A stretch of 64,000 nt of DNA, from NCBI GenBank assembly GCA_023953695.1, contig JAMLJG010000005.1, positions 1 through 64,000 on the forward strand. Direction: 5' to 3'. The translations under genes and the position numbers were made by a program. This DNA is from Kiritimatiellia bacterium. Its GTDB lineage: Bacteria; Verrucomicrobiota; Kiritimatiellia; CAIVKH01. Of the stretch, positions 1 through 54,493 are shown one piece after another. A model generated the notes under the pieces. That model was not told the DNA's origin, made no database searches, and worked only from the letters and a program-made list of their open reading frames with translations. Every line of letters begins with the position of its first letter. Position 1 is the first letter of the stretch.

Positions 1-1272
1 TCGAAAGGCTTCGGCGGGTGTCTTGGCGGCGAGGAAGGCCCGATAGCGCGTGCGGACGATTTCGGCAAAGTCTTTTGGAACGTCGCGGGGCGTGAACGCG
101 GTGGCGTCGTGGAGGGTGACCTTCTTGTTGGCGGATCCGATGGATGGATCGGTGAGGAGTTTCCACGCGCTGTCCGCATCGCCGGCTCGGACGGCCTGGC
201 TGATGGGGGTGACGGCGGAGTCCGCGTCGAAGCGTTTGCTTTCGGTCAGTTCTACGATGCAGTGGCGCAGGGCGGCTGCCTCGCAGAGTTCTGCCATGAC
301 GCTGCCGGGATCTACGGATGCCAGTTGGTTCTTGTCGCCGAGCAAAATCAGGCGGGTCTGCGGCGTGATGGCGTCGAGCAGTTTTGCCATCTTGGGGAGG
401 TCAATCATGCTGGTTTCGTCAATGAGGACGATGTCGGCGGGGAGCGGGGTTTCGCGGTTGTAGTGGAAATAGGGGGAGTTGCGTTGATAGCCCAGGAGGC
501 GATCGAGGGTGGATGCGGGTTCCCATAGGATTTGACGGGTGTCTGTGGAAATCTCGCTGCCGACACTTTCTTGCAGGCGCGCGGCGGCCTTGCCGGTTGG
601 CGCGGCCATGCGGATTCGAAGAGGCGCGGTGTTTTCGGCTTGCGCGACGAGCAGGCGCAGGAGGAGCGCAGCGATGGTGGTTTTGCCCGTGCCAGGCCCG
701 CCGGTGATGATGGTCAGTCGGTTTTTCAGACCTCGCTGCACGGCGTCCAATTGGCTTGGGGTGGGGCGAAATTGGCCTTCGCGTCCGAAGGTGACGGTTG
801 CGAGCTGGGTGCGGAGTTGGGCTGGGATGGGAGTCGGCTCTCGTTCAGCGAGCGCGCGCAGTCTGTTGGCGACGCGCTTTTCATAGTTCCAGAAGCGGCG
901 CAGATAGAGGCGATTCCGTTCGAGAATGAAGGGGAGACTCGACTCTCCGGAGCCGACCCATTCGGGGCAGTTGAGCAGTGCGCGTTGGGCGTTGCGCGGG
1001 GCGGGGAGCGATAGAATCTGCTTTTCGCGGGCGGAGGTCTGCTCCTCATTATCGCGCCGGATGCGATCGAGTTGCCACCAGTGGTCGGAGTGCAGATCGA
1101 GGCAGACGTGGCCCTCGTTCGTGACGCGCACGGCGAGGGCGAGGAGCGTTTTGATCTCCTCGGAGGGCGGATTCCCCCGCGTGAGGAAGGTGCGAATGAG
1201 GGATTCGATCAGGTGCACATCCAGATCGCGCAGCAATCCGACTTCATGAAAGCTTTTCATGCCGAAGCTCAT
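1..1272 (-). CDS. recD: Exodeoxyribonuclease V alpha subunit RecD, 3' part outside window
   Basis: RecD is the 5'-3' helicase motor of RecBCD, which unwinds and degrades double-strand ends and starts recombination. The reading frame shows the P-loop GGPGTGKTTT near residue 190, then AAPTGKAA, and the Walker B stretch LIDETSMID near residue 280, in the order known for RecD. The C-terminal part lies beyond the left edge, so the protein is incomplete here. The start is the ATG at 1270-1272, whose ATGA overlaps the recB stop, implying translational coupling at the end of the recC-recB-recD unit. An N-terminal alpha-helical region precedes the helicase as usual. Identification is secure from motifs and context. 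Confidence 0.95.
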   Translation of the reverse strand, partial: MSFGMKSFHEVGLLRDLDVHLIESLIRTFLTRGNPPSEEIKTLLALAVRVTNEGHVCLDLHSDHWWQLDRIRRDNEEQTSAREKQILSLPAPRNAQRALLNCPEWVGSGESSLPFILERNRLYLRRFWNYEKRVANRLRALAEREPTPIPAQLRTQLATVTFGREGQFRPTPSQLDAVQRGLKNRLTIITGGPGTGKTTIAALLLRLLVAQAENTAPLRIRMAAPTGKAAARLQESVGSEISTDTRQILWEPASTLDRLLGYQRNSPYFHYNRETPLPADIVLIDETSMIDLPKMAKLLDAITPQTRLILLGDKNQLASVDPGSVMAELCEAAALRHCIVELTESKRFDADSAVTPISQAVRAGDADSAWKLLTDPSIGSANKKVTLHDATAFTPRDVPKDFAEIVRTRYRAFLAAKTPAEAFR

Positions 1273-4200
1273 GCGGGGCCTCCGAAAAATGAGGAAAGCG
1301 CGGCCACCAGTTCGCGTGAGGGCGCGTCGCTGAAGACGCCGCGACGGGTCTTGCCGTCCATTCCGCGCACGAAGAGATAGAAGACGCCGCCGAAGTGCGT
1401 GTCGAAATCGTAGCGCGCCAGGCGCGTTGCGAGGAAGCCGTGAAGCGCGACGGAGTAGATGAGGTATTGCAGATAGTAGGCGTGCGCATCCATTTCGGCC
1501 GCTATTCCGGCGTCGTCGAATCCGTCGGCGCGGCCCGCGAGGCGATTGGATTTCCAGTCCACAATGTAGAACTTTCCTGCGTGCTGAAAGACGAGGTCCA
1601 TAAAGCCGGTCATGAAGCCGCGCGGAAGGATCATTTCGCGGTCGCGCATTCGTTTGATGAACGCTTCATTGCGCGCGGGGGTCTTCCAGTCGCGCTCCAA
1701 AATGGGCGCGACTGCTTGCAGGGCGCGCTCGTCGTCGCGCATGGAGAAATTGAATTCGAGTTCCGAACGCCGGTGGGCGAGTGGAATGTCGCGAAGGGAA
1801 AGGGCTCCGGCGCGGGCGGGGAGCGGCGTGGCGAGCGTGTTGGCGATCATGCGGTGTACGGCGTCGCGGCGGCCCTTGAGCAGCTTCTGTTTTTCCAGAG
1901 GCATGGCATCGGTGGGGCGGGGGCAGATCCGATATTTGTCGAGCACCGCATCGGTTGTTTCGCGGAGGGTCGCTGCGGGCGCTTGAAAATCAATGAGCTC
2001 AAAAATTTCGTGCCAGCATTCGCCTAGTTTCGCGCCGCCGGGAATTGAGAATATCGGATCGGGTTCCATCGCCTCTGCCTCGGGAGCGGTCGCCTCGCTC
2101 TGATCCACATCGCGAACGTCCGGTTCTTTTGCAGCGGCGGCGCGGTGCGATGCAAGGGCGGAAAAGCTCGCGTGGCCGTGCTTTTTATCTACCGGGTGAA
2201 GGAGTGTCCTGGGTCGGAGGTCCGGAATGGTTTTTGGGGGCGCCGAGTTCGCGGGCGGGTTCAACTGGAGCGCGGGCGCGTCTTCCAGTGCGATGCAATC
2301 GGGTTGCGCCGCACTCCCTTTGTTGGCCGGAGAGAATCGCGCGAGTAGATGGGCGACTGCGTGCTTGTGTACGTTCTTACTATGCTCCTTTGAACTGAAG
2401 AGATAGACGCGATTGATGGCGCGCGTGAGGGCAACGTAGGCCTTTCGGATGTTCTCTTCGTGCATTTCCTCGGTGGCCCTGATTTCACCGGGCGCGTCTT
2501 TGGAAGTATCAAAGTCGAGGACGAGCCGATTGTCGCTGTGGTATCGGATCACTTTTGCATTGCCGCCGCGTTTCAGGGTGGCGCTGTGTTGAGAAAGAGT
2601 GGGGACAAAGACAATGGGAAATTGAAGCCCTTTGCTCTTGAAGACGGTCATGATTTGCACCGCGTCGTCGTCATCGGCGGCTCGCAGTCGCAGCTCGTCG
2701 CTGTCGCTCTCTTCATCGCGTGCATCGGGATCCGTCTGGCGCGCAAACCACGTGGTGAGGGCGATCGGGCCGAGGCGCATTCGGCTTGCTTCCTGATGCG
2801 CCACTTCGACGAGCTGCTGCACTTCGGCGATACGGCGTCTGCCATTCTCTTGCTGTGCGAGATGCGGAAAGAGTTGGAGTCTGGTGGCGAGAAAGCGGAA
2901 GGCCTCGATGAAGGAGGATTCTTCCCACCGCTTCTTCGCTTCTCGAAAGGCTTCGAGCCAGTCGTCGAAGCGAGTGGGGAGCGCGTGTTCTGTATGCGGT
3001 TCGGAGGGGGGTGGCGCTGGCGGAGCCATTCCGGTGCGATGGACTTCGTCTTCCGCCTTGAATCGCGCGAGCATCGCGGGTGTGCAGGGGAGCAATCCGG
3101 TGGCCAGTGCGCTGCGGACGAAGCGCGATTTGCCCGGTTCCAGAATTGCCTGCATGAGGATGGCCAGACGAGGTGCGTCTTCGGAGTCGAAAACCTTGCC
3201 CACCGCCTGGCGTACGGCATTCACTCCACGCGCGACCAGCGCTTCCTGAATCTCCAACGCCTCCTTGTGATTCATCACGAGGACGGCGAAATGGCCGGGC
3301 TGGATGGGCTTCGCGCCAAGGGTGGCAGATGGATCCTTCAGCAGGCGCTCAATCTCCTCGGTGACGAGCGCAGGCCATTGCTCTGTGTGCTCTGGATTCA
3401 TGCGCCAGATTTTGAGCGGTTGCGGGTCGCGCTGCCCCGCGAGCAGCAGTTCCTTGTCGGCGCCCACATTGTTGGCCTGCAAGTCGCCCGCATAGGGGAC
3501 GTTATGGTTGAGAAATGTGGGGCCTCGGTCACTGGGTCCATCGGCGAAAAGCGCGTTGATCGCCTGGACGAGATTGGCTTCTGAACGGAAGTTTGTGCCG
3601 AGCGAGTAGCGCCGCTCTTCAGGGATTTTCTGCTTGGCCGCGAAGTAGGTGAAAATGTCGCCGCCGCGAAACCCGTAGATGGCCTGTTTCGGATCGCCGA
3701 CGAAGACGAGTGGAGTGGGGGTTTCGCCCTCCGCTTGCGGTTCTCCGAAGAGCGACCAGAAAATATCGTACTGGATCGGGTCCGTGTCCTGAAATTCGTC
3801 AATCAGGGCCGCCTTGAATTCGTCGCGCAGAAGTGCGCGCAAGATCGGGCCCGCCTTCGCATTTCCCAACACCGCGCGCACATTGGCGAGCATGGAGTCG
3901 TAGGTCAGCGCGATGCGGTCGCGGATGCGATCGAGAACGCCATCGGAAATCGCCTTTGCAATCTTGGGCTGATCGTTGAGGTTGGCGACTTTCGCGAAGT
4001 CGCATTTGCCAAACGCCTTCACCGCCTGAGCAAAGCGTTTTGCGTCATGGCTGTGCGAGGGCGCGTGCATGACCTTGAACGTGAAGAGAAGGCTCTGGCA
4101 GATGGGCGACTGGTCTTTGCCGTCGAGTGGCAGCGTCTTTTCCCACTCAAGAAATCGAGGCGCGAGATCTCGCGCCAGGCGCCGCAATACTTGTGTGTCC

Positions 4201-4961
4201 ACCGTGTAGGGTTTCGTTTTTCCCACCAGCAGATTCCCGTCGTGCGCCCACGAAACACTTGCGTTCGGTGATTGGATTTGCTCGGCAATGCGATTGCATT
4301 CGGCGAACCACGTGTGGAACTCCGGCTCATTGGGGATGGCGCTGGTTTTCAGGATCGCGGCCGGATTGCGATGAACTTCTTGCACGCAGGCGAGGAGCTC
4401 GCTGAAGCTCGTGAAAGGCACATCCTCGCTGGCATAGGCGTTCTTGCGCCACCAATCGCGGCACGCCTCGGTCACAATCGCGCTGGCGTCGCTGAGCAGT
4501 TCTGCATCGGGATCGTGGCCGCATTCAAAAGCGTAGTGAGCCAGTACGCGATTGCAGAAACCGTGGATGGTGAAGATGGCCGCGCTGTCAAAATCCATCA
4601 GTGCGAGTTGGACGAGTTTGTTCAACTCCATCCTCCTCGCTTGGTCGTTCTGCGGATTCACCAGTTTCATCACCGCTTCAATGCGCATCGAGTCGGCTGA
4701 GGAAGGGGCGTCCTCTGGCGCTTCGAGGTAATCGTGACAATGCACAAGCACGGCGCGCAGTCGCTCGCGCAGTTCCAGTGTGGCAGCTTCGGTGAACGTC
4801 ACAACGAGGATTTGGCGGACCGTCAGCTCGCGTTCGAGAATCAAGCGCAGATAGGCATTCTGGATGTTGTAGGTCTTGCCAGTTCCCGCGCTGGCTTCGA
4901 CGAGGATGGGCTCGTCGAGCAGCAGTGCGGGCTGAAAGATGCATGAACTGAATTCTTTCAT
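1269..4961 (-). CDS. recB: Exodeoxyribonuclease V beta subunit RecB
   Basis: RecB is the 3'-5' helicase and only nuclease of RecBCD. The protein is 1230 residues, near the usual length. Visible motifs are the P-loop ASAGTGKT (residues 23-30), UvrD-type LIDEFQDTDP, FVGDPKQAIYGFRGGD (motif III), a late KSKGLQFPIVFVP and VALTRAINRVYL, and the C-terminal nuclease signature with GFMDLVF and DWKSNRL. I chose the ATG at 4961, one base after the recC stop, because it gives the canonical short N-terminus before the P-loop. An upstream in-frame ATG at 4988 would overlap recC. Its stop overlaps recD by ATGA. Confidence 0.96.
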   Translation of the reverse strand: MKEFSSCIFQPALLLDEPILVEASAGTGKTYNIQNAYLRLILERELTVRQILVVTFTEAATLELRERLRAVLVHCHDYLEAPEDAPSSADSMRIEAVMKLVNPQNDQARRMELNKLVQLALMDFDSAAIFTIHGFCNRVLAHYAFECGHDPDAELLSDASAIVTEACRDWWRKNAYASEDVPFTSFSELLACVQEVHRNPAAILKTSAIPNEPEFHTWFAECNRIAEQIQSPNASVSWAHDGNLLVGKTKPYTVDTQVLRRLARDLAPRFLEWEKTLPLDGKDQSPICQSLLFTFKVMHAPSHSHDAKRFAQAVKAFGKCDFAKVANLNDQPKIAKAISDGVLDRIRDRIALTYDSMLANVRAVLGNAKAGPILRALLRDEFKAALIDEFQDTDPIQYDIFWSLFGEPQAEGETPTPLVFVGDPKQAIYGFRGGDIFTYFAAKQKIPEERRYSLGTNFRSEANLVQAINALFADGPSDRGPTFLNHNVPYAGDLQANNVGADKELLLAGQRDPQPLKIWRMNPEHTEQWPALVTEEIERLLKDPSATLGAKPIQPGHFAVLVMNHKEALEIQEALVARGVNAVRQAVGKVFDSEDAPRLAILMQAILEPGKSRFVRSALATGLLPCTPAMLARFKAEDEVHRTGMAPPAPPPSEPHTEHALPTRFDDWLEAFREAKKRWEESSFIEAFRFLATRLQLFPHLAQQENGRRRIAEVQQLVEVAHQEASRMRLGPIALTTWFARQTDPDARDEESDSDELRLRAADDDDAVQIMTVFKSKGLQFPIVFVPTLSQHSATLKRGGNAKVIRYHSDNRLVLDFDTSKDAPGEIRATEEMHEENIRKAYVALTRAINRVYLFSSKEHSKNVHKHAVAHLLARFSPANKGSAAQPDCIALEDAPALQLNPPANSAPPKTIPDLRPRTLLHPVDKKHGHASFSALASHRAAAAKEPDVRDVDQSEATAPEAEAMEPDPIFSIPGGAKLGECWHEIFELIDFQAPAATLRETTDAVLDKYRICPRPTDAMPLEKQKLLKGRRDAVHRMIANTLATPLPARAGALSLRDIPLAHRRSELEFNFSMRDDERALQAVAPILERDWKTPARNEAFIKRMRDREMILPRGFMTGFMDLVFQHAGKFYIVDWKSNRLAGRADGFDDAGIAAEMDAHAYYLQYLIYSVALHGFLATRLARYDFDTHFGGVFYLFVRGMDGKTRRGVFSDAPSRELVAALSSFFGGPA

Positions 4962-4962
4962 G

Positions 4963-7900
4963 TCACGGAAGCTTCCCCAGAATCGCATTTTGGAGGGGCT
5001 GTCCAATCCGTTTGGCCCAGTCTGTAAACTGCGTCTCGTTGTTGAACGGGCCCGCTTTGCCATACAGGGCTCGGTAGTATGGATTCCTGGCATCGCCATA
5101 CATGCCGCTCCATGCAGTTGTTGCTGCTCTTATGGCCTTGCCCTGATCGGAAGTGGCGCCTTCTGCGCTCACGATGTAACTCAAAGAGGTTTCTGGGACG
5201 AATGGCGGTGGTGGTGTGCTTTCAAAAAGGAAGATGCGCAGATAGTTCTCCAATAGGCTTATGGCGGTGGGCCGATCCACCTCGTCCTGCATCAACGTGA
5301 GGCGCAGCGCCTTCTTCTCCTTCTTCTCCTTCTTACTTTCGGTTTGGAAATTGGCAGCTAAGATGAGGTCGTTGCAGGCCCGCGCGAGGAGATAGGTCAG
5401 CCAGGTGGGGAAGAGTCTCTGATACCGGAACGAGGACGAGCTGAAGTCGAGAATGAGGCGGATATTCTCATCGCCGACAGATACTGAAATCACGGGTGCA
5501 GAGCCGGAGAGAACAACACGCGCGCCGTTCACGGAAATGGGAAGGGTCCACACGTGCGCCTCGGCGTGCAGGCGCGCCTTAAGTGCGGCAGAGAGTTTGT
5601 CGAAGGGAAGGGGCGCGATGTCTTGCTTGAGGAGCTGAGTTGTCTCCTCGTAGAGCGCTTCGTAGATTTTCTGACCCTGCGCAGCGAGAGGGAGAAGATT
5701 GTCCGCCTGAATAGTCGCGAGCACGTCATCATCGCTGTCTGTGATGATCGCTCGGATAATGTGCTCGCGAATTTTCCACGCTTCCATGGCGTTGTGATCG
5801 AATATCTCCGCTTCATCGGGCAATGCGTCGAGGCGAGGGCGAGGCTCTGCGCCGAGGACGTTCTTGAAGTAGTACTTTGCGGGGTTGTCGAAGAAGGCGC
5901 GCAGGTCTGTGAGTTCGACATGCACATCTGGCGCGAGCGGGGAAACGGACGGAAACGCAGGGGGGGCAGCGGGGGGCCTGAGCGTTGCCCGCGCGGTTTC
6001 GCACTGGGATTCTGAGTAGGAAAAGAGAGGGGAGCCCGATTCGAAATAGGAAGGGTGATGTGCGGCGAGACGATGGTGAACGGGCTCGATGGGTGAGCCG
6101 AAATGCCTTTCGGTATATTCGAGCAATTCTTGTACGGCGACCGATTCGCGTTTGCGCGAATTGTCCTCTTCTGAAAATGCGGGATAGAAAATCAGGAGAC
6201 GGTTTTTCGCATTGAGAATCGCTTCGAGAAACGCTTGGCGATCTTCGATGGGCAAGGATCGGTCGCCCATTTTGCGCGCTTTCCGGAAGAGGTCGTAGGC
6301 GGGGCGATTCTCGGAGCGGGGGAAGAGGCCATCGCCCATGCCGAGAAGACACTGGACGGGACGCGGCGTGCTGCTGCCGGGGCGCAGCGAGGTGAAGATC
6401 ACCGCGTTGCGATTCAAATCCGAGCCGCCCGCGAGATCGCCGAGATGGCCAGCCAGGAAATCGCGAATGACGGCGATGGATACCGCGCCTTGGAACCCAG
6501 CTGCCTCGCTCGTGGTGTGCAGGAGGCGGATAGCGCGCCTCAAAATGGCGATGTCGCGATAGGTTTCGTTATCGCTGAGGAAGAAGTCGTCCACCAGTGT
6601 ATTCAGACGCTCCACCCACTCTGCGGCAGTGTGGTCGGAGCGGCCATAGTCCGCGAAGTCGGTCAGCTTCTCGTAGAAATGAACCAGGCGGCCGAGACAT
6701 GCCGCCTCGTCGCCCTCGACAACGTCGCAGGGCAGTAGTTTGCGTGGATTGATGTCCGCCGGCTCCTGGCCCATGGCGTAGCCGAGCAGAAGGCGGTCGA
6801 GGCCGTGGCCCCACGTGGTCTCTTCTGTGAAAGAGGCCTTGGTGACGAGCGCTCGATGTTCCGCATCGCGCCCCCAGCGAACGCCCGCCTTGTTCAGCCA
6901 GATGGCGGCCTCATCCACATCGTCGGGCGCGAGTTCAAACTGCAGCGCGATGCTGGGATTGCGGAGAAGTTCGAGAATCTGGGGCGCGGTGAAGCGGCTA
7001 TCGGTCAGGTTGAGCAGTTGGTTGAACGCATTGGCGGCCTGGCTCTCGCCCGCGGAAACCCGGTCTGCAATGACGAACGGAATGGCTTTGGGCCCATTGG
7101 GATTGATGCTGGAGAAGACGGCCTCGATATAGGACGCGTAGCTGTTGAGGTCCGGCGTTTGAACCTGAATGTGGCGAGGCTGGAGGCCCTCGATCGAATT
7201 GAAACAGTCGAGAAGTTGGTCGCGCAGGATTTCGACCTCGCGCATTTTCCCGTGGCACAGATGAACTTGAATTGAGGGATCGGGCGCACAACCTTGGCGC
7301 TTCAGCGAGGCATCGCACGCCCAGATCGAATGCTGGAGTTTGGCGAGGCGCGAGGTCCCCGTTGGCTCTGCGAAGAGATCGTCAATCTGCCCGCCGGTCA
7401 GGTCGAGCGCTGCCGCTGCCGTATCGCGGCACCCGCGCGCGTAGGCGCTGAGCAGCGGGTGTTCGATATCGAGCAGCTCGCCTGCGTCATCGGGCAATTC
7501 GTGAAAATCGGATTGCTCGATTCGGCTCTTGAGCGCCTCGCGCTCAAACCAATCCACTTCGGACGGATTGAAGAGATAGAAGTCCACGGGAAGGATTGCG
7601 CCCAAGTGATGAAAGAACGTCAGGTGCACCGGCGGCAGCATAGACGGCGCGAAGACGAAAATACGGCGGTATTGCTTTTCGATACCGCACGCGGCGAGAT
7701 CGGTGTGCATGCGCCGAAAGGCAGCCAGATATGTCTCATCGCGGCGCGTTTCCACCAGCATCCGCCACAGCGCTGGCTCCCAGGCCAACGCGGGGGCGTC
7801 CTGCACGCCCACATCCTTTCCTGTTTCCCACGCGAGCATCATCTGCGGACGATAGGAGATATATTGATTCAGGAGTGACGCGAGCCGCCCCGCGAGTTTG

Positions 7901-8331
7901 AAGCATTTGCGCGGATCGCGCCGCAAGCCATCGCGCGATGTGACATAGCGCTCGATAGGCGCAAAGGTCCCGTCGAGCGTCCCCCCACGCAGTCGCTCAA
8001 AAAGTTGCCAGCGCATACTCTTTACCGAGAACGGGTGTTTCTCTGGATCGGGTGTGCCCCCGGTGGGGTGATCCATCCGGTAGAGCCAGTCGTTGACGAA
8101 AAGGCTCAGCAGCGGAAAATCGCAGTTTGCGAGGACGTGCGGGACCGTCGTGCGGGGAGCATCAAAGAGAAACCGCTGTTGGAGCCACGCCTGCTGGGTG
8201 CGGTTCGGAACCACCACGCAATCGCGCCGGGCGAATAGGTCGTCGGGAGTGGTCTTGCCCTTCAGGAGCTTGGCGAAAAGGTCATCCGCCAGCCGCTCCA
8301 GATTGTTGCCCCAAGAAATCGTCAGTGCCAT
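4963..8331 (-). CDS. recC: Exodeoxyribonuclease V gamma subunit RecC
   Basis: RecC is the scaffold and Chi-recognition subunit of RecBCD. It resembles a helicase and nuclease but is catalytically dead. The 1122-residue protein starts MALTISWGNNLERLADDL and contains typical RecC phrases such as VVPNRTQQAWLQQ near the N-terminus, RRIFVFAPSMLPPVHLTFF, HLCHGKMREVEILRDQLL and SLRPGSSTPRPVQCLLGMGDGLFPR. It is the first gene of recC-recB-recD on this strand. Upstream there is only weak Shine-Dalgarno sequence, and the next gene on the same strand is the reverse transcriptase ending at 9076, about 740 bases away, so co-transcription with it is possible but unproven. Confidence 0.95.
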   Translation of the reverse strand: MALTISWGNNLERLADDLFAKLLKGKTTPDDLFARRDCVVVPNRTQQAWLQQRFLFDAPRTTVPHVLANCDFPLLSLFVNDWLYRMDHPTGGTPDPEKHPFSVKSMRWQLFERLRGGTLDGTFAPIERYVTSRDGLRRDPRKCFKLAGRLASLLNQYISYRPQMMLAWETGKDVGVQDAPALAWEPALWRMLVETRRDETYLAAFRRMHTDLAACGIEKQYRRIFVFAPSMLPPVHLTFFHHLGAILPVDFYLFNPSEVDWFEREALKSRIEQSDFHELPDDAGELLDIEHPLLSAYARGCRDTAAAALDLTGGQIDDLFAEPTGTSRLAKLQHSIWACDASLKRQGCAPDPSIQVHLCHGKMREVEILRDQLLDCFNSIEGLQPRHIQVQTPDLNSYASYIEAVFSSINPNGPKAIPFVIADRVSAGESQAANAFNQLLNLTDSRFTAPQILELLRNPSIALQFELAPDDVDEAAIWLNKAGVRWGRDAEHRALVTKASFTEETTWGHGLDRLLLGYAMGQEPADINPRKLLPCDVVEGDEAACLGRLVHFYEKLTDFADYGRSDHTAAEWVERLNTLVDDFFLSDNETYRDIAILRRAIRLLHTTSEAAGFQGAVSIAVIRDFLAGHLGDLAGGSDLNRNAVIFTSLRPGSSTPRPVQCLLGMGDGLFPRSENRPAYDLFRKARKMGDRSLPIEDRQAFLEAILNAKNRLLIFYPAFSEEDNSRKRESVAVQELLEYTERHFGSPIEPVHHRLAAHHPSYFESGSPLFSYSESQCETARATLRPPAAPPAFPSVSPLAPDVHVELTDLRAFFDNPAKYYFKNVLGAEPRPRLDALPDEAEIFDHNAMEAWKIREHIIRAIITDSDDDVLATIQADNLLPLAAQGQKIYEALYEETTQLLKQDIAPLPFDKLSAALKARLHAEAHVWTLPISVNGARVVLSGSAPVISVSVGDENIRLILDFSSSSFRYQRLFPTWLTYLLARACNDLILAANFQTESKKEKKEKKALRLTLMQDEVDRPTAISLLENYLRIFLFESTPPPPFVPETSLSYIVSAEGATSDQGKAIRAATTAWSGMYGDARNPYYRALYGKAGPFNNETQFTDWAKRIGQPLQNAILGKLP

Positions 8332-8576
8332 TGCGTTGAAACTTTCATCCTCTCATCTACTCGATATGGAGGACGATTTCGAGCCTGATGTGCACGAGGG
8401 CTGTTTTCTCTTTTACGCCGGTCAACGCGGACGCCTTCGGCAAGACCTCATCTCGGATGATCAATGTTGTTCTCATGCATATTCCACTTCGGGTCGCAGA
8501 GAGCGCTGCAGGGAAAGCGACATTTACAGATGTGACTGTGATGTTTGTCCAAATCCCTTTTCAACCGCTTTGCATC

Positions 8577-8643
8577 GAAATGGCGAATGCCAGTATTGGC
8601 AAAGCGATCCAACGAGTGTTGCAACTATGTGCGGACCGACCCC
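8577..8643 (+). repeat. 67-bp dispersed repeat, copy A
   Basis: This copy matches 8919-8985 with 5 mismatches over 67 bases. It contains two small hairpins (GCCA-GTAT-TGGC and CAAC-GAGT-GTTG) and ends in TGCGGACCGACCCC. Its last 24 bases recur exactly, in reverse orientation, at 54493-54516 directly at the stop of a truncated RAYT gene. It therefore behaves like a REP-type mobile palindromic unit rather than a gene. Confidence 0.8.
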
Positions 8644-8806
8644 ACTGCTCCCCCTGCTGCTGACGGCTGGCTGGTGCGCGTGCGGAGTCGCGGGGATTCT
8701 GCTGGCAATTGTTCCGCTACTCGTCTGGCGCGAGGTGCTCAAGCTACGCGCCGATCTTGAGTCGCGCGCCGCGCCGCGACCCAAAAACGGATACCCAAAG
8801 CCGTAA
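8627..8806 (+). CDS. Possible small membrane protein
   Basis: This is a 59-codon frame starting at an ATG inside repeat copy A. The predicted peptide has one strongly hydrophobic segment (about residues 6-32, including ILLAIVPLLVW) followed by a charged tail (REVLKLRADLESR), the shape of a single-pass membrane peptide. No Shine-Dalgarno motif is evident and the start lies in repeat sequence, so this could be a chance frame. No family is recognised. It stands alone between recC and the reverse transcriptase. Confidence 0.25.
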   Translation: MCGPTPLLPLLLTAGWCACGVAGILLAIVPLLVWREVLKLRADLESRAAPRPKNGYPKP

Positions 8807-8918
8807 CGCAACACGGCGCGACTCGCGTCGCGTCGTGAATGCAAAACTGTGAATCCGCGATACGTGATTCGACCGACCAGTGTCATGGTAACCCGTGGCA
8901 ATTCGCCCGGAGAAAATT

Positions 8919-8985
8919 GAAATGACGAATGCCAGTATTGGCAAAGCAGTCCAACGAGTGTTGCAACTATATGTGGACCGACCCC
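8919..8985 (+). repeat. 67-bp dispersed repeat, copy B
   Basis: Direct repeat of 8577-8643 with 5 differences. Both small hairpins are preserved. The differences affect positions outside the hairpin stems. The copy lies 90 bases downstream of the stop of the minus-strand reverse transcriptase gene. Confidence 0.8.
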
Positions 8986-9075
8986 AATTCCCGCTAATTA
9001 AAGAAGAGGGGGTTCTTCATCGGAAAGGGCTGACCCTGGGTGCCACCTCGGTGCGATTCGACGCAATTCTATATT

Positions 9076-10572
9076 TTAGTACATCCAAGCATTCTCAGTG
9101 AAAAGGGCGACCTCATCCGGCTTAACAACCTCCGATTTCTTTGTCGCGTCTGCGATGACAATTTTCGAAGCATCTACAGCAGACTTAATTTCTTTGCTAG
9201 CTATCCATCCATTCTCCCACAATTCCGCCTTAAGCCCCTTGACGATTTGGCATATTGGTTCATCGCTCTCATATTGTATTCCGACTGCTTGAGGTATTGA
9301 AACGCGCTGCAGCCAAATCTCTAGGTAGCCATTGTAAGGAATGCGACGCATCTTGCTGAGCACCTGGGACCATAGTCGTTCTTTTTCACCCTTTTCCGCG
9401 AATGAGATCAAGCAGCTCAAGATGCCGGCAATGGCCGGAAAGGCAAGAGGCGACACTATGGCAATATCCGTTGCTATTGCGACCTGAACCTCGAGATCTT
9501 CCGGTTTCTCTTTTTGCTCGGATATCTTCTCGTGAAGCTCTCCGGCAAGGCGGCGCAATGCGCCGCTATTCGGGAAGCGACGTCCGAATGCATGGAGTCG
9601 TAGCAACTGCTTTTGTATGGTCTTTGCGTTCGCGTTCCCAAGATCTTGCAAATCGATACCAGCCTGTTTATCCGGTTTTATTGAACCTTCAACAATATTT
9701 GCGCAGACCATTGTTTTTGATACACCTAATCGCATTCCAACCACACGTAGCTTGTCGCTGACAACCTTGAGAATCTGCTCCGCTCGCTGATCGTTCTGTG
9801 CAAATATACGGTAATCATCTCGGTAGCGAAGAATTCGGAAGTCGTCCTGCCTTGCAAGCTCTTTGGTGATTAAGTCGTCCACAAATCCAAGGACGATTTC
9901 CGCAATAAAATCCATCATGACAGAGCCTTGGGGAATTCCATTGGTTTGACCATAGCGACCGGCTTGCATATGTGAGTCGATCACATCGCCTAGTAGCTTA
10001 TTCTTTCCTCGGCTCTCTTTTGATGCCTCTATGCCATGTATAGCCCAAGCAATACTGTGCGTATAAAGTGACCCATAACAATCTGTTACATCCGTGTGCA
10101 GGAGGTGGCTGTAATTCAAAGAGTACACGAGGGACTTTTGCTCGACACCTTGCCACCAACTCTTTACCTGGGCCGCTTTATCAGAATTGGCATCCACGGA
10201 CATAACTGGTGCGCTGCAGCAATCAACAAGGCCGCCTTCAAGCTCTTTCATGCGATTGACGATGAGCGCCCAATTGGTGGGCTCGCATATCTGGTTGACC
10301 AGTGAGACGTATAAGACAGGGTGAATCAATTCAAAAGGGCGCCAACTAAGTCTTCCGTCTTTATTGGCAACAATGGAATAGTTCACATTTGGCAATAGGC
10401 CGGGATTCCTCTCCTTGATCCCCATGAATGAGCCTCCGGCAAGGGCTATCTCTACATCAGTAAGTAGCTTCTCGAATGAGATGTATGACGGAAAGTCGCT
10501 GTTAAAATAACTGCTGCCCTTCAAGAAGTGCTTTTTTGCCTCTTTGGCGGTATTGTCGATTAATCGCTTCAT
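9076..10572 (-). CDS. Solitary reverse transcriptase, unknown-group/Abi (defence RT) type
   Basis: The 498-residue protein carries a complete RT palm: motif A TDVTDCYGSLYTHS (residues 160-173, D161), motif B NGIPQGS (211-217), motif C YRDD (250-253, catalytic D252/D253), and a motif D-like LRVVGMRLGVSKT (275-287). A helical region of about 200 residues follows, with no maturase X domain, HNH endonuclease or protease. That layout fits the UG/Abi class, several members of which are single-gene anti-phage systems (DRT); which subgroup cannot be told by eye. The gene is visibly AT-richer than its neighbours, suggesting transfer. It sits on the recCBD strand. Group II intron RT, retron and DGR assignments are less likely because the matching RNA or repeat parts were not seen. 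Start ATG 10572 has only a weak GA-rich Shine-Dalgarno. Confidence 0.88.
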   Translation of the reverse strand: MKRLIDNTAKEAKKHFLKGSSYFNSDFPSYISFEKLLTDVEIALAGGSFMGIKERNPGLLPNVNYSIVANKDGRLSWRPFELIHPVLYVSLVNQICEPTNWALIVNRMKELEGGLVDCCSAPVMSVDANSDKAAQVKSWWQGVEQKSLVYSLNYSHLLHTDVTDCYGSLYTHSIAWAIHGIEASKESRGKNKLLGDVIDSHMQAGRYGQTNGIPQGSVMMDFIAEIVLGFVDDLITKELARQDDFRILRYRDDYRIFAQNDQRAEQILKVVSDKLRVVGMRLGVSKTMVCANIVEGSIKPDKQAGIDLQDLGNANAKTIQKQLLRLHAFGRRFPNSGALRRLAGELHEKISEQKEKPEDLEVQVAIATDIAIVSPLAFPAIAGILSCLISFAEKGEKERLWSQVLSKMRRIPYNGYLEIWLQRVSIPQAVGIQYESDEPICQIVKGLKAELWENGWIASKEIKSAVDASKIVIADATKKSEVVKPDEVALFTENAWMY

Positions 10573-11127
10573 AATTCTTTTCGTCGAACCATTGATTGTC
10601 GGGAAGACTTTCCGTGCTGTTGAGTACTACGGAGCTTGTCCGAAAAGCATTCCAAGCCACAATGGCTTCACCTTTGGTTGCGAGTTTATCGTGTCTGATC
10701 TGGGGGACAATGGGAAAAGCGGGATTTTGAAGGGGTTGCCGATCGCAGCCACCCACGGGAAACAGAATGTCGGCGCCGCGCGCGCTGCGGGAACAATGGC
10801 TGAATGGTTCGTCTTTATGCGAGGCGACGCGGGTCTGCATCGCGAGCAGATGCTCGCGGCTGGCGCAGAGGGTGGTGCGTCCGCAAGTCACTGCATCTAG
10901 CACGACTGGGCGATTCTGGATGTGGCGAGGAGTTGGGTGTCAGGAGGCGGATGGGTTCTCGTGTGTTGCGCAGTGGGATGTGTGCATGCTGAAGTGGCGC
11001 GATTGAGGGCGTTCCGTCGTTTCTTGCTCTTGTAATCTGAAGTCGCAGGATTGAAAATTTGAACGCGGCGCCCGAATTGTGGTCTATCACCGCATTCGGC
11101 GAGTGGGGAGGGCGCCCGGAGCTACGT
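10573..11127. other. Gene-free region upstream of the reverse transcriptase; candidate ncRNA region
   Basis: No convincing gene is seen between the divergent RT and the ABC operon. The first 120 bases upstream of the RT share its lower GC content and hold small hairpins on the RT strand, for example 10654-10668 (5-bp stem, 5-base loop). An 8-bp stem with a 2-base loop lies at 10841-10858. Some defence RTs use a structured RNA encoded just upstream, so this is where one would be expected. No known RNA family is recognised and the structure has not been computed. Confidence 0.35.
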
Positions 11128-11856
11128 ATGATTAAAGTCAGCAAACTGGTGAAGAACTTTGGCAGTCGCGCGGCGGTGCGCGATGTGTCGTTTGAGGTGA
11201 ACCCCGGCGAGGTGTTGGGTTTTCTGGGTCCGAACGGGGCGGGCAAGACCACGACGATGCGGATGATTACGGGCTATCTGACCCCTTCATCGGGCCGCGC
11301 GTGGATTCAGGGGTTCGATGTCGCGGAAAAGCCGGTCGAGGCGCGGCGGCACTTGGGCTATCTCCCGGAGAACGCGCCGTCCTATGGCGATATGACGGTG
11401 GAGGAGTTCCTTTCTTTCGCTGCGGCGATGCGCGGCTTTGCCGGGAAGGAGGCGCGGCAGCGAATCGGGGAGACGCTGGAGCGGTGCATTCTCACTTCGG
11501 TGCGGCATCAGCCGATTGAAACCCTGTCAAAAGGCTATCGGCAGCGCACGTGTTTTGCGCAGGCGATTCTGCACGATCCTCCGGTGCTGATCCTCGACGA
11601 GCCGACGGAGGGGCTGGATCCGAATCAAAAGTTTGTGGTTCGCAATATGATTCGCGACATGGCGAAGAACAAGGTGATCGTGTTTTCCACTCACATTCTG
11701 GAAGAGGTTGAGGCCATCTGCACGCGAGCGATCATTATCAGCGCTGGCCAGGTCGTCGCTGACAGCACCCCTGCGGAATTGCGGAAGCAGGGTTCGCTGG
11801 ATCAAGTCTTCCGCTGGCTGACAACGTCGGCCGATATTGGAGGTAGCGCGCGATGA
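11128..11856 (+). CDS. ABC transporter ATP-binding protein, GldA-like
   Basis: This is the cytoplasmic ATPase of an ABC-2 type transporter. The 242-residue protein has Walker A GPNGAGKTTT, the signature LSKGYRQRT, Walker B VLILDEPTEGLDP and the switch histidine in STHILEEVE. The start is the ATG at 11128, preceded by GGAG at a good distance; an upstream in-frame codon gives an unlikely extension. Its stop overlaps the permease by ATGA. With the next three genes it forms the ATPase-permease-GldG-DUF4340 cluster known from Bacteroidetes gliding loci and many non-gliding bacteria, so substrate and function are not fixed by homology. Confidence 0.9.
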   Translation: MIKVSKLVKNFGSRAAVRDVSFEVNPGEVLGFLGPNGAGKTTTMRMITGYLTPSSGRAWIQGFDVAEKPVEARRHLGYLPENAPSYGDMTVEEFLSFAAAMRGFAGKEARQRIGETLERCILTSVRHQPIETLSKGYRQRTCFAQAILHDPPVLILDEPTEGLDPNQKFVVRNMIRDMAKNKVIVFSTHILEEVEAICTRAIIISAGQVVADSTPAELRKQGSLDQVFRWLTTSADIGGSAR

Positions 11857-12590
11857 GCAGTCCGGTTTGCACCATTCTCAAGCGCGAGTGGAAGGCGTAT
11901 TTCAATTCGCCCGTCGCGTATGTTTTCATTGTGATCTTTCTGGCGCTCGCGGGATTTTTCACGTTCAACGTGAGTCGGTTTTATGAGGCGGGGCAGGCGA
12001 GTCTGGACCGCTTCTTTTTCTGGCACCCGTGGATTTATCTGATTCTGGTGCCCGCCGTCGCCATGCGACTGTGGGCGGAGGAGCGGCGCACGGGCACGCT
12101 CGAGTTGCTATTGACATTTCCGGTGACGACGGCGCAGGCCATTGCGGGCAAGTTCCTCGCCGCGTGGCTCTTCGTCCTGCTTGCGCTGGCGCTGACGTTT
12201 CCGGTGGTTGCGACGGCGTTCTATCTCGGCTCGCCCGATCCGGGGCCAATCATCACCGGATACATCGGCAGCGCCCTGCTTGCGGGCGCGTATTTGGCTG
12301 TGGGCTCGCTCACATCCGCGCTGACGCGGAATCAGGTGATCAGTTTCATCATCGCCGCTGTGATCGGATTGTTTCTGCTGCTGGCGGGCTTCCCGCCGGT
12401 GACTGATTTCCTCTATCAAGTCGCGCCCGCATGGGTGGTCGAAACCGTTGCGGGCTTCAGTTTCAGCGCGCATTTCGAGCAGATGCAGCGCGGCGTGCTG
12501 GACCTTCGCGACATTCTCTATTTTGCCAGCGCCATGGCGTTCATGCTGCTGGCTACGCATGTGACCTTGGACAACCGCAGGACGAAGTGA
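11853..12590 (+). CDS. ABC-2 family transporter permease, GldF-like
   Basis: A 245-residue integral membrane protein with about six hydrophobic segments, starting with ILKREWKAYFNSPVAYVF, a typical opening of this permease family. The motif WAEERRTGTLELLLTFPV after the second helix is characteristic of ABC-2 permeases. It overlaps the ATPase gene by 4 bases and is followed 7 bases later by the GldG-like gene, so translation is probably coupled. It should form the channel for the ATPase encoded at 11128. Confidence 0.88.
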   Translation: MSSPVCTILKREWKAYFNSPVAYVFIVIFLALAGFFTFNVSRFYEAGQASLDRFFFWHPWIYLILVPAVAMRLWAEERRTGTLELLLTFPVTTAQAIAGKFLAAWLFVLLALALTFPVVATAFYLGSPDPGPIITGYIGSALLAGAYLAVGSLTSALTRNQVISFIIAAVIGLFLLLAGFPPVTDFLYQVAPAWVVETVAGFSFSAHFEQMQRGVLDLRDILYFASAMAFMLLATHVTLDNRRTK

Positions 12591-12597
12591 GCGGACG

Positions 12598-14493
12598 ATG
12601 AAGAGATTTGGCATTCATGTTGTGACGGGCGCCGTGGGTTTGATCGTTACCCTGGCGGTGTTGGTGTTGCTCAATGTCGCGGCAAGCTCGGTGCGCGTGC
12701 GCGCCGATCTGACCGCGGAGAAGCTCTACACACTCGCGCCGGGCACGCGCGGGCTGCTGAAGAACCTCGAGCGCGATGTGACGTTGAAGTTCTACTTCAG
12801 CCGCAGCGCCGATGCCGCGCCAATCAATTTCAAGCAATACGGCAGCCGCATCCTCGATTTGCTGCGGGAGTATGAAAAGCTCAGTGGCGGACACCTCTCG
12901 CTCGAAGTGATTGACCCGCAGCCGGACAGCGACGAGGAAGAATGGGCGCGCCGCTACGGTCTCACCGCGTCGCGCCTCACGCAGGAGAGCGGTGCGCCTT
13001 CCGTGTTTCTCGGTCTCGTGGCCCTGTCGGGCGCGCGCCAGTCGGCGATTCCCTTTTTCTCGCCGGCGGACGAGCCGCAGCTCGAGTTCTTGATCTCTCG
13101 CGCGGTCAATGAAGTGACCGTTGCGAAGAAGCCAAAGATCGCTGTCATTTCGCCCCTGCCGCTGATGGGCGGCTCGGCGGGCTTCGTACGGCGCGGCCCG
13201 AACTTTGATGGATGGATCATCATCAACGAGTTGCGCGCCATTGCAGAAATTGAGGATTTGAGCGGCCAGGTGGAGGAGATCCCGGCGGATGTGGATACGC
13301 TGTTGTTGGTCTATCCGCGAAATCTGCCTGAGGCCACGCTGTATGCCGTGGATCAGTTCGTCCTGCGCGGGGGCCGCCTCTTCGCGCTGGAGGACCCACA
13401 ATGCCTAGCCGATCTCGATGCGCAAAGCTCGCAATTTCGCGATCCCAAATCGGCGCAGGCGGATTTGAACGCGCTCACGGCGGGGTGGGGCATCAAGATG
13501 TCCTCCGATCGCGTTATCGCCGATCCCGCCGCCGCGACGCGGGTGGCCTCGCAACTCGGAGAGGTGCAGCTCAACAACTCGTGGCTCACGCTGCGCTCCA
13601 GCAACTTCAATCGCGAGGACGTGTCGGTTGCCGCGATGAACATGATGCAATTCCCGATGACGGGGTGGTTCGAGGTTCAGCCCGTTGACGGACTCACCGT
13701 CACACCGTTGATCACAGCGGGGCCGGAGGCCGGGAGCGTTTCGATCATCGAAGCCACCTCGGGCACCTTCGCGGGGAAAACCACTTTTGAGAAGGCGACG
13801 AACGCCTTGCCCATCGCGATCCGCGTGAGTGGACATTTCAAGACCGCCTTTCCCAACGGCCGACCCAGCAACGTTCCCGCTGGCGCGACCCATGCGCCTC
13901 CGTCCGAACCCGATGCGACGCATCTTGCCGAGAGCGTCCGCGATGGCACGGTCGTGCTGGTGGCCGATGCCGACTTCCTTTATGACGCATTCGCCGCGCG
14001 GCGCCTCCCGATGTTCGGGCCAGGTGTCTATCAGTTGATGAACGACAACATCAATTTCGCCGCGAATGTGGCCGGACAACTTGCCGGTGGCGATGCGCTG
14101 ATTGCGCTGCGCGGGCGCGGCACCTTCGAGCGCCCGTTCACACGTGTGCTCGCGTTGCGGACCTCCGCGCAGGAGAAGTGGCGGGAGCAGGAACTCAAAT
14201 TGCAAGAGCAGCTCGCCACCACACAAGCCAACCTGGATCGCCTGCAATCGGGCAAGTCGGAAGATCAGCAGCTCATCATTTCGCCCGAACAGCGGCAGGA
14301 AATTGAGCGTTTCCGCGCGCAACAACTTGAGACGCGGCGCGCGCTCAAAGAAGTGCGCAAAAATCTGAATCATGAAATTGAAGCCCTCGGTCTGTGGGTC
14401 AAGGCGCTGAATATCGGCGCTATGCCAGGACTCGTTATCCTGTTCGGCCTGGCGCACGGCTGGCGTCGGCGCCGCCGTGCGCGCAGTCGCTGA
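12598..14493 (+). CDS. GldG-like ABC system auxiliary membrane protein
   Basis: The 631-residue protein has an N-terminal transmembrane helix, an N-terminal segment (RADLTAEKLYTLAPGTRGLLKNL) typical of the GldG/ABC-type uncharacterised transport auxiliary family, a long extracytoplasmic region, a predicted coiled coil near residues 520-590 (rich in Q, E, R and K), and a C-terminal helix followed by a basic tail (WRRRRRARSR). Family members pair with GldA/GldF-type ATPase and permease. The exact role outside gliding bacteria is unknown. The downstream gene begins 28 bases later. Confidence 0.85.
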   Translation: MKRFGIHVVTGAVGLIVTLAVLVLLNVAASSVRVRADLTAEKLYTLAPGTRGLLKNLERDVTLKFYFSRSADAAPINFKQYGSRILDLLREYEKLSGGHLSLEVIDPQPDSDEEEWARRYGLTASRLTQESGAPSVFLGLVALSGARQSAIPFFSPADEPQLEFLISRAVNEVTVAKKPKIAVISPLPLMGGSAGFVRRGPNFDGWIIINELRAIAEIEDLSGQVEEIPADVDTLLLVYPRNLPEATLYAVDQFVLRGGRLFALEDPQCLADLDAQSSQFRDPKSAQADLNALTAGWGIKMSSDRVIADPAAATRVASQLGEVQLNNSWLTLRSSNFNREDVSVAAMNMMQFPMTGWFEVQPVDGLTVTPLITAGPEAGSVSIIEATSGTFAGKTTFEKATNALPIAIRVSGHFKTAFPNGRPSNVPAGATHAPPSEPDATHLAESVRDGTVVLVADADFLYDAFAARRLPMFGPGVYQLMNDNINFAANVAGQLAGGDALIALRGRGTFERPFTRVLALRTSAQEKWREQELKLQEQLATTQANLDRLQSGKSEDQQLIISPEQRQEIERFRAQQLETRRALKEVRKNLNHEIEALGLWVKALNIGAMPGLVILFGLAHGWRRRRRARSR

Positions 14494-14521
14494 ACCGGGC
14501 GAGCGAAGTGGAGAACACTCG

Positions 14522-15643
14522 ATGAAATCACGAACCCTCATTCTCTTGCTGATTGTCCTCGTCGCGCTGGCGATGTTCATTTCCAAGGTCGGTCGGCGCT
14601 CGCACGAGGCCTCGCCCACAGAGTTGGGCCAGCGGGTGCTGCATACGAAGGATATCAACGCGATTGAGCGGATTGAGCTGACCAGCGGGACGCAACAGGT
14701 GGTTCTTGCTCGGACGGATGGCGAATGGGCGGTCGGATCGCTGTGGGACTATCCCGCGCAGTTCGAGCCGATCGCTGCGCTTTTGCGGCAACTCGATCAG
14801 TTGCGCGTGGGAGAGGTGATTCGCGGCGGCACCGAGATTTTAGATGAATTCGGCCTCGCGGAGAGCGCAACGAGCTTTCCGGTTCGGGTGAAGCTGTTTG
14901 AATCGGCGGACACGGCGACTGACGATTTGCTCATCGGCCTGCCTCGCACATCCTCTGCCATGCCCGCGGGCTTCTCGATGCCGGACAGTCGGTACTATCG
15001 CTCGGGCGATGGAGAGGTTGTCATTGCCGAGCCGTTTGTGGAAGAGGTGCGCCGCCGACCCACCGACTGGATTGTTTCAAAGCTGCCGAGTTTCGGACCC
15101 AGTGAGATCGGTTCGATGACTGCCTATCCGACAAATGGCGCAATGTATGCCCTCGATCGAGATGCAGACGGCACCTACAGCGGCGCAGGAGCGCTCACAG
15201 GAAAGGTCATCAATGTGGCCAGCGCTGAAATCTGGTTTCGCTCGCTCCAGAACCTTTCGACGCGCTCCATTGTGGATCCGGCCACCGATGCAAAAGCGCT
15301 CGCGCGCGGCGCGAGCGGCAGCGCCGTTGCGCACTTGACCAACGGCATTGTCGTGCGCGTGGAACTCGGCGCGCTCACGCCGGAGAATATGGGTCACTAC
15401 GGCTGGCTCACGTTCACCTACGAGGAACCTCCCGCGCTTGCGCACGGCGAGGAAGCGGCGCTGGCCGCGGATCGCGCCGCTCGCGATGCGGCGCGCGAGG
15501 AAGCTGAGAAACTGCAGGCAAGATATGGCCACTGGATTTACGTCTTCGACTACAGCCAAGCCACCAAACTCCTCTTCCTTCCCGACCAGCTAATCGTGGC
15601 GAACGCCGCGCCTCCTCCGCTGCCGCCCGCCGCGAAAGATTAG
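14522..15643 (+). CDS. DUF4340 domain-containing protein
   Basis: The 373-residue protein has one N-terminal transmembrane helix (LILLLIVLVALAMFI) and a large extracytoplasmic part with the DUF4340 pattern: an early IERIELTSG strand, DGEWAV, LLRQLDQLRVGEVI, and LLIGLPRTS. DUF4340 proteins regularly end GldA/F/G-like operons, as here. The ATG at 14522 has GGAG about 9 bases upstream and avoids overlap with the GldG-like gene. The last 60 residues include an alanine- and glutamate-rich helix and a proline-rich tail. Function unknown; likely works with the transporter at the inner membrane. Confidence 0.83.
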   Translation: MKSRTLILLLIVLVALAMFISKVGRRSHEASPTELGQRVLHTKDINAIERIELTSGTQQVVLARTDGEWAVGSLWDYPAQFEPIAALLRQLDQLRVGEVIRGGTEILDEFGLAESATSFPVRVKLFESADTATDDLLIGLPRTSSAMPAGFSMPDSRYYRSGDGEVVIAEPFVEEVRRRPTDWIVSKLPSFGPSEIGSMTAYPTNGAMYALDRDADGTYSGAGALTGKVINVASAEIWFRSLQNLSTRSIVDPATDAKALARGASGSAVAHLTNGIVVRVELGALTPENMGHYGWLTFTYEEPPALAHGEEAALAADRAARDAAREEAEKLQARYGHWIYVFDYSQATKLLFLPDQLIVANAAPPPLPPAAKD

Positions 15644-15772
15644 CAGCACCAGCCGAAATTAAGTCGCCCATTTATTGCGCAACAGATTGGTGGTCAGACT
15701 GTTGCGACAGCCTGTCGAAAAGTCTGGAAGTTTGCAGCGGCGCGTTGTCTAGTCGTTCTCACAGGTTCAACT

Positions 15773-16315
15773 GTGAAAACGACGACAAAAAGTAAGAAGC
15801 ATTCGCGAGTCACGATCCGGGAAATGGCGCTCCGAGATTTGAGTGACGTGTATGAGTTAGGCGCCCAGCTCTTCACTGCGGAGAAATGGCCGACGCTGTA
15901 TCGCGCGTGGGACGAGCATGAGATTCTCAATTTGTTCAACTCCGAGAGCGAGTATTGCCTTGTGGCGGAGTGCGATGAGGTCATTGTTGGATTTGCGTTG
16001 GGCACGATGATGCGCAAGCCGCGGAACTCGTGGTCCTACGGCTGGTTGCTTTGGCTTGGCGTATCGCCGCGCTTCAAGCGGCGTGGGCTTGGCGGGCGGC
16101 TCATCAACAAGCTCACGGACACATTCATTGACGATGGCGCGCGCATGATGTTGGTGGACACCGACGCGCAGAACAAGACGGCGTTGGGCCTGTTTCGCAA
16201 GATGGGATTTGCCGACGAGATGAACCATGTCTATCTCTCGAAGAATCTTCATGCCCATCCGCGCTACATCGAGCGCACGCTCGACGAAGAAGAGTGGGAA
16301 GACGAGATCGGCTGA
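15773..16315 (+). CDS. GNAT family N-acetyltransferase
   Basis: A 180-residue cytoplasmic acetyltransferase of the GNAT fold. The acetyl-CoA binding motif VSPRFKRRGLGGRL is near residues 100-113, followed by the conserved C-terminal pattern NKTALGLFRKMGF. The start is a GTG at 15773 giving a lysine-rich N-terminus (KTTTKSKKHSR); an ATG at codon 18 is an alternative. The acidic C-terminus (DEEEWEDEIG) is unusual. The substrate cannot be predicted; ribosomal-protein or small-molecule acetylation are both possible. It stands between the DUF4340 gene and sbcDC with gaps on both sides and is probably transcribed alone. Confidence 0.85.
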   Translation: MKTTTKSKKHSRVTIREMALRDLSDVYELGAQLFTAEKWPTLYRAWDEHEILNLFNSESEYCLVAECDEVIVGFALGTMMRKPRNSWSYGWLLWLGVSPRFKRRGLGGRLINKLTDTFIDDGARMMLVDTDAQNKTALGLFRKMGFADEMNHVYLSKNLHAHPRYIERTLDEEEWEDEIG

Positions 16316-16509
16316 CCCGCGCCGATTCGCCGCGCCCCAGCACAGAGTCCCAGCGAGTCACCTGCGCAACCGATATCCAGTTGAGCGCGTTCGCGTCGCT
16401 ATCTCACTCGGTGCAGGCCAAAAGGGCTGATTGTGCTCTATTTGCGACCTGCCTTGTGCTATCATTGCTCGGCAAGGGCACGAGGCGGGAGCAGCAAGCG
16501 AGGTGATGT

Positions 16510-17742
16510 GTGAAGGTATTGCACACGGCGGATTGGCATTTGGGGAAATCCCTGTATCAAAAGCGGCGCTATGAGGAATTTGAGGGATTCCTGAAGTGGT
16601 TGGTGACGACTCTTCGCGACCGGCAGGTGGATGCGTTGTTGGTCGCGGGGGATATTTTTGACACGGGGACGCCGAGTATCAAGGCGCAGGAGTTGTACTA
16701 CGAATTTCTGGCGGATGTCGCGCGCGAGACGCCGTGTCGCCACGTGGTGGTGACGGGGGGCAATCACGATTCTCCGTCGTTTCTGGATGCGCCCAAGCGG
16801 GCGTTGCGAGCGCTGAATGTTCATGTGGTGGGGAGTGCGGCGGATAATCCAGAGGATGAAGTGCTGACGCTTCGCGATTCGGCGGGTGACGTGGAGCTGA
16901 TTGTCGGAGCGGTGCCGTATCTGCGCGACCGCGACGTCCGAGCATCGGAGGCGGGCGAGAGCGTTGAGGAGAAGGGGCGGAAGTTGGTGGAGGGGATTCG
17001 CGCACACTATACGGCGGTTGGCGCGGAGGCGGAGCGGCAGCGAGCGGGGCTGCGCGATCGGGTGCCGATTGTGGGTATGGGCCATCTTTTCGCGGCGGGG
17101 GGACAGATGGGCGAGGGGGTGCGCGATCTGTACGTGGGCGGTCTTGGGCAGGTTTGTGCGGAGGTGTTTCCTTCGTGTTTCGACTATCTGGCCTTGGGGC
17201 ATTTGCATGTGCCGCAAAGCGTGGGCGGACGGGAGACCTTCCGCTATAGCGGGTCTCCGATTCCAATGGGGTTCGATGAAGCGAAGCGGAAGCAGAGTGT
17301 TTGTCTTGTGCATTTTGAGGGGCGGTCGGCGTCTGTCGAGTTGTTGGACGTGCCGCGGTTACAACGATTGGAATCGGTCAAGGGCGATTGGTCTGCGATT
17401 GCGCGGCAGCTCGGAGCGTGGGTTCAGGAAGATGCGAGTTGCTGGGTGGAAGTGGAGTACAGCGGCGCGGAGATCATCGGCAATCTGCGCGAGCAGATCG
17501 GCCGCGAGGTCGAGGGATCTCGGGTCGAAGTCATTCAGGTGAAGAATCCTCCGGCGATGAGGCGATTCCTGGAGGAGGCCGAGGGCTACAGTTCGCTGGC
17601 AGAGTTGCGGGTTGAGGATGTTTTCGAGCGGTGTCTGGATGCCAACGATATTCCGGCGGCGCAGCGCGATTCGTTGGTGGCTGTATTTCGCGAGGCGATG
17701 CTGGGGTGGGAGCAGCGCAAGTCCGAAGGGGTGGTGAGCTAG
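16510..17742 (+). CDS. sbcD: Exonuclease subunit SbcD
   Basis: SbcD is the Mre11-type metallophosphoesterase nuclease that, with SbcC, cuts hairpins and blocked DNA ends. The 410-residue protein starts KVLHTADWHLGK and shows the phosphoesterase series DWHLG, GDIFD, GNHDS and GHLHVPQ, which hold the metal ligands. The start is GTG at 16510 behind AGGTGA; the nearby ATG is in another frame. The sbcC gene begins 3 bases after its stop, so the two form an operon. A -10-like TATCAT lies in the 194-base upstream gap. Confidence 0.95.
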   Translation: MKVLHTADWHLGKSLYQKRRYEEFEGFLKWLVTTLRDRQVDALLVAGDIFDTGTPSIKAQELYYEFLADVARETPCRHVVVTGGNHDSPSFLDAPKRALRALNVHVVGSAADNPEDEVLTLRDSAGDVELIVGAVPYLRDRDVRASEAGESVEEKGRKLVEGIRAHYTAVGAEAERQRAGLRDRVPIVGMGHLFAAGGQMGEGVRDLYVGGLGQVCAEVFPSCFDYLALGHLHVPQSVGGRETFRYSGSPIPMGFDEAKRKQSVCLVHFEGRSASVELLDVPRLQRLESVKGDWSAIARQLGAWVQEDASCWVEVEYSGAEIIGNLREQIGREVEGSRVEVIQVKNPPAMRRFLEEAEGYSSLAELRVEDVFERCLDANDIPAAQRDSLVAVFREAMLGWEQRKSEGVVS

Positions 17743-17745
17743 GCC

Positions 17746-20988: not shown

Positions 20989-21034
20989 GGCGCAGTTCGC
21001 TATAGCTCGAGCAATCGCTCTCGCGCAGGCGACC

Positions 21035-54370: not shown

Positions 54371-54493
54371 ATGTCACGACCGATACGGATCAATTTGGAT
54401 GGTGTATGGTATCACGTCACCGCGAGGGGAATAGAGCGGCGCGCGATCTTTACCGGGGCAGCGGAATATTGTCACTTTCAAGATGTGGAATAG
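54371..54493 (+). pseudogene. Truncated REP-associated tyrosine transposase (RAYT, IS200-like)
   Basis: The first 40 codons match the N-terminus of RAYT transposases: SRPIRINLDGVWYHVTARG, then ERRAIFTG. The frame stops at 54491-54493, where sequence identical to the end of the 67-bp repeat begins, so the catalytic HUH and tyrosine parts are gone. It is a deletion remnant that cannot encode an active transposase. Confidence 0.85.

Follow-up and report, generated by a model that had tools for sequence, protein, structure and literature searches.

The window, a stretch of 64,000 nucleotides from a Kiritimatiellia bacterium, holds a recD gene cut by the contig start, recB, recC and a gene for a reverse transcriptase (RT), all on the same strand, with two direct repeats between recC and the RT gene (Table 1). 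The RT gene is an intact ORF, and all three RT motifs that the original prediction had read in it (TDVTDCYGSLYTHS, NGIPQGS and YRDD) were located in its 498-aa product. RVT_1 (residues 152-290) is the sole Pfam domain of the protein, and Pfam gives no endonuclease, maturase or other domain, as had been supposed; the helical C-terminal extension of ~200 residues also appears in an AlphaFold2 model, in which residues ~293-498 are all-helical. The GC content of the gene is indeed lower than that of its surroundings, at 47.6% against 59% for the window and 59-61% for the neighboring genes, and its GC3 is 51.5% against 71-76% in the other window genes tested. No promoter signal above chance was found for the gene.

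Table 1. Features of the RT gene and of its recCBD neighborhood in the window.
Feature	Position	Strand	Basis
AbiP2-family reverse-transcriptase-like DNA polymerase, 498 aa	9076..10572	-	Profile, PDB match, fold match
RT motif TDVTDCYGSLYTHS, residues 160-173, catalytic D161	10054..10095	-	
RT motif NGIPQGS, residues 211-217	9922..9942	-	
RT motif YRDD, residues 250-253	9814..9825	-	Both Asp invariant in 109 relatives
Tyr30, equivalent of priming Tyr61 of Abi-P2 (7r08 chain numbering)	10483..10485	-	phmmer alignment, published Y61F data, 109/109
C-terminal helical domain, residues 293-498	9076..9696	-	AlphaFold2 model; 7r08 match over its length
recC, neighbor, outside the proposed system	4963..8331	-	Pfam Exonuc_V_gamma, RecC_C; TIGR01450
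recB, neighbor, outside the proposed system	1269..5099	-	TIGR00609, 678.6 bits
recD, neighbor, cut by contig start	1..1272	-	ORF; homology to the recD part of the G002 recB-recD reading frame
Two 71-nt direct repeats, 92% identical, between RT and recC	8574-8644, 8916-8986	.	

The gene had been placed among the UG/Abi RTs, in an unknown group, and read as a possible defence RT. The UG/Abi placement holds, but the group is a known one. The PADLOC AbiP2 profile matches residues 1-495 over profile positions 4-487 of 489 with 612 bits (E 1.9e-184), 445 bits ahead of the second-best model, RT_UG14 (167.5 bits); AbiK, Drt4 and Drt6 reach 88, up to 131 and 146 bits, respectively. A search of NCBIfam returned no AbiP2 model among its matches, and the models there for DRTs and for group II fell far under their cut-offs; the group II RT model scored 44.6 bits (cut-off 300) and the retron St85 model 23.6 bits (cut-off 235). 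Among solved structures, the best sequence homolog is 7r08, the Abi-P2 of an E. coli P2-like prophage (E 2.4e-68, residues 1-487). The fold agrees with this assignment: when the AlphaFold2 model (built with 59 relatives; mean pLDDT 90.5, pTM 0.90) was searched with Foldseek, the top six matches were the six chains of 7r08, the best at TM 0.83/0.85, and the Abi-P2 fold, an RT-like domain without a thumb and a C-terminal helical domain, is present in the model. The next folds were DRT4 and DRT6 (TM ~0.63), with values of at most 0.64 for these two and UG15, 0.56 for AbiK, 0.46 for AbiA and below 0.4 (query-normalized) for group II intron, retron and DGR RTs. To the idea that the protein belongs to another class, be it group II intron, retron, DGR or another DRT, we give practically no weight: the RVT_1 core is common to all of these, and there are weak matches to Drt4, Drt6, UG14 and the group II intron RT model, but the lead of AbiP2 over the next profile and the distance in TM between Abi-P2 and every one of these folds speak against it. 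The RT is a full-length member of AbiP2, a named and structurally solved family; the profile, the sequence match to 7r08 and the fold support the defence reading and rule out an unassigned RT.

AbiP2-type polymerases are bacterial anti-phage enzymes that make random DNA attached to themselves, and AbiK is known to prime its synthesis on protein and to do without a template. Abi-P2 is a trimer of two-domain protomers that synthesizes DNA without a template, and its activity is lost in Y61F but not in Y46F (PMC9508834). In the phmmer alignment to 7r08, Tyr61 falls on Y30 of the window RT and Tyr46 on H15; the chain numbering of 7r08 has 31 residues before the native Met, and placing the published Y46 and Y61 at chain positions 46 and 61 is our own reading of the alignment. 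Across 109 members of the AbiP2 family, position 30 is Tyr in every one (109/109) and the aspartates D161, D252 and D253 never change (109/109), while position 15 varies among H, Y and F. A conserved ncRNA beside the RT is a trait of the class 2 DRTs (DRT2, DRT9 and DRT10). Among 43 subfamily members no conserved DNA was found outside the ORF, either up- or downstream, and no Rfam family lies near the RT gene, so that nothing points to an ncRNA partner, and we rejected one for this RT. Class 1 UG/Abi RTs work template-free and without ncRNA (PMC13174585; PMC13275509).

An alignment-based search for relatives of the RT gave 80 loci, and a tree was built from 94 sampled sequences. Within AbiP2, 59 of the 94 sequences, the window RT among them, form a clade with full support that is separate from the prophage-P2 group. 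This clade spans Pseudomonadota, Chloroflexota, Acidobacteriota, Myxococcota, Cyanobacteriota, Planctomycetota and candidate phyla, and its closer part is 57-69% identical to the window RT; close relatives occur in only 2 of the 146 genomes of the class, the window's own included. This scattered distribution, together with the GC contrast, indicates that the gene was acquired horizontally. On plasmid p1 of Agrobacterium leguminum, an AbiP2 gene that is 67-69% identical and unannotated in its record (L030:8001-9497) has a frame broken near the C-terminus and is likely a pseudogene.

Some members of the subfamily are flanked by integron-like signals. Core motifs resembling attC, with stem structure, stand on both sides of AbiP2 at loci L044 and L060, and the flanks of L042, L047, L059, L063 and L078 are at least partially attC-like. 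The evidence for this reading is an inspection of the flanks and their folds, together with a complementary-core search; a strict regular expression for the attC core (GTTRRRY/RYYYAAC) missed most sites. The complementary-core search found pairs in L042, L044, L047, L057 and L063, plus L094, which is likely due to chance, and these six compare with a mean of 2.0 and a maximum of 8 under shuffled flank pairing, an unclean control because cores are common between loci. These flanks suggest that AbiP2 genes of the subfamily may travel as gene cassettes, some of them lone outside an array. As for the window RT itself, its flanks have no attC-like site, and we rejected its reading as an integron cassette. 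TTCGACG ~16 nt before its start and CGTCGAA just after its stop are complementary, which is within chance, and the downstream side has no attC fold.

The same genome encodes a second AbiP2 (G000:C9:37499-38962; L002, L028), 43% identical to the window RT, which lies within a type I restriction operon (hsdM-hsdS-AbiP2-DUF6978-DUF1828/1829-hsdR) and groups in the tree with a Kiritimatiellae MAG at 98% support. The operon recurs with the same gene order in G077 of the same class and in the Kiritimatiellae MAG L121, and this supports a role of the AbiP2 family in defence. Locus L027 is listed with the second AbiP2 and L121 for AbiP2 in such an operon, and L107, L108, L109, L112 and L113, of the clade with 41-44% identity, also stand beside type I genes. 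When PADLOC hits in near and far neighbors were compared, type I restriction genes occurred near the RT only, and most of these neighbors trace to the 41-44% identity clade, not to that of the window.

The original prediction had further described the recC operon as lying directly downstream of the RT on the same strand, and had proposed that this placement may be functional. The recC-recB-recD order and the strand are as described; an operon shared by RT and recC is unlikely, since recC starts 744 bp beyond the RT stop and this gap holds the two 71-nt repeats. The repeat contains short palindromes, pieces of it of 24-42 nt are also found on contigs C21 and C34 and at 54493-54516, and it is possibly the scar of a small repeated element. 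With the window RecC and RecB as queries, recC was found beside 0 of 119 other AbiP2-family loci (flanks of at most 10 kb per side, shorter on small contigs; some viral loci are near copies), and the sole RecB-like match was a 96-aa helicase fragment in L094. Conversely, an RT was found near recC homologs in 0 of 9 stretches in related genomes; these nine homologs were detected at identities down to 24-30%, so the query sees distant recC. In the congeneric genome G002, recCBD lies between unrelated genes and has no RT. Gene order points the same way. In G001, G002 and G003 purH stands directly before a gldA-type ABC operon; the window instead has an inverted purH at a distance of ~10 kb, and RT and recCBD precede gldA. 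As the purH-gldA adjacency is present in three relatives and broken only in the window, the RT-recCBD junction is derived, and the adjacency is probably an accident of rearrangement. Within 11059-22663, ~5.4 kb with an acetyltransferase-like gene and sbcD-sbcC separates the gldA-type ABC operon and purH.

It would be tempting to see RT and recCBD, neighbors on one strand, as a functional pair in which RecBCD degrades or monitors the DNA made by the polymerase and the defence is unleashed once a phage inhibits RecBCD. A precedent exists in DRT3, whose product is restrained by RecBCD and whose immunity is triggered by phage Gam (PMC13174585). However, DRT3 needs the double-stranded product of two RTs, whereas that of AbiP2 is single-stranded, and we found no report of DRT3 genomically linked to recBCD. 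Given also the absence of recC near the other AbiP2-family loci and of the RT near the other recC loci, the RT-less recCBD of G002, the gap with its repeats and the derived junction, we regard such a pair as very improbable. We hold the same of a one-RT RecBCD-guarding system, in which an AbiP2 polymerase would have been recruited beside recCBD in this lineage, its toxicity gated by RecBCD status: such systems, DRT3 or retron-like, are marked by a recurring association with recBCD or by dependence on it, no such association was found in either set of loci, and the synteny is broken. The original prediction had itself stated that adjacency in no other genome would refute it, and as regards the adjacency part this is the case: it was found in no other genome examined.

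Thus, we suggest, with a probability of about 0.88, that the RT gene is a horizontally acquired AbiP2 abortive-infection polymerase, self-primed on Tyr30, and that its place beside recCBD is most likely incidental. By analogy with Abi-P2, the N-terminal fingers/palm RT-like domain and the C-terminal helical domain would form a C-shaped protomer, protomers would most likely assemble as trimers, DNA would start on the hydroxyl of the RT's own Tyr30, and the product would be untemplated single-stranded DNA; upon phage infection, this activity would stop the infected cell from growing or kill it. We infer protein priming, template independence, oligomerization and phage exclusion for the window RT from Abi-P2, of which the P2-EC30 member (ORF570) excludes phage T5 (PMC9508834). 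Because identity to Abi-P2 is 30-33% and the clades are separate, the activity and phage range of the window's clade may differ from those of Abi-P2. There is a slim chance that the gene is not an active defence but encodes a tyrosine-primed polymerase that is now mainly regulatory, or is a remnant in decay: it is solitary, without an accessory gene, and its promoter signal is not above chance, yet the ORF is intact with all catalytic, priming and structural signatures kept, and a single-gene layout is normal for AbiP2 and AbiK (PMC9508834).

Our results add a well supported, experimentally accessible AbiP2 clade that spans many phyla at 57-69% identity and stands apart from the studied prophage-P2 group. 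The recCBD adjacency should not be taken as function here, and the RT finding itself may prove less useful than the occurrence of AbiP2 between attC-like sites and, repeatedly, in type I restriction operons.

Among known systems, DRT3 includes a class 1 relative of the window RT as one of its two RTs (DRT3b); the system consists of two RTs and an ncRNA, and such partners are not evident for the window RT. AbiK, DRT4 and DRT6 share the class 1 architecture of an RT and a helical repeat domain, but their fold likeness is moderate (TM 0.55-0.64) and their scores are 88, up to 131 and 146 bits against 612 for AbiP2. Abi-P2 (P2-EC30 ORF570, P2-EC58 ORF544; 7r08) matches the window RT in full-length sequence and fold, and in its RT-like and helical domains, priming Tyr, YRDD and single-gene layout; it differs in identity (30-33%) and clade, in having the dispensable Tyr46 where the window RT has His, and in residing in E. 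coli P2-like prophages, whereas the window RT is chromosomal, outside any prophage and flanked by host genes. Its own clade is the chromosomal and plasmid AbiP2 subfamily, with L042 (69%), L045 (Geothrix), L047 (Aestuariibacter) and the Agrobacterium leguminum plasmid (67%); unlike the window RT, none of these stands beside recCBD and several lie between attC-like sites, while most members share its length of 498 aa.
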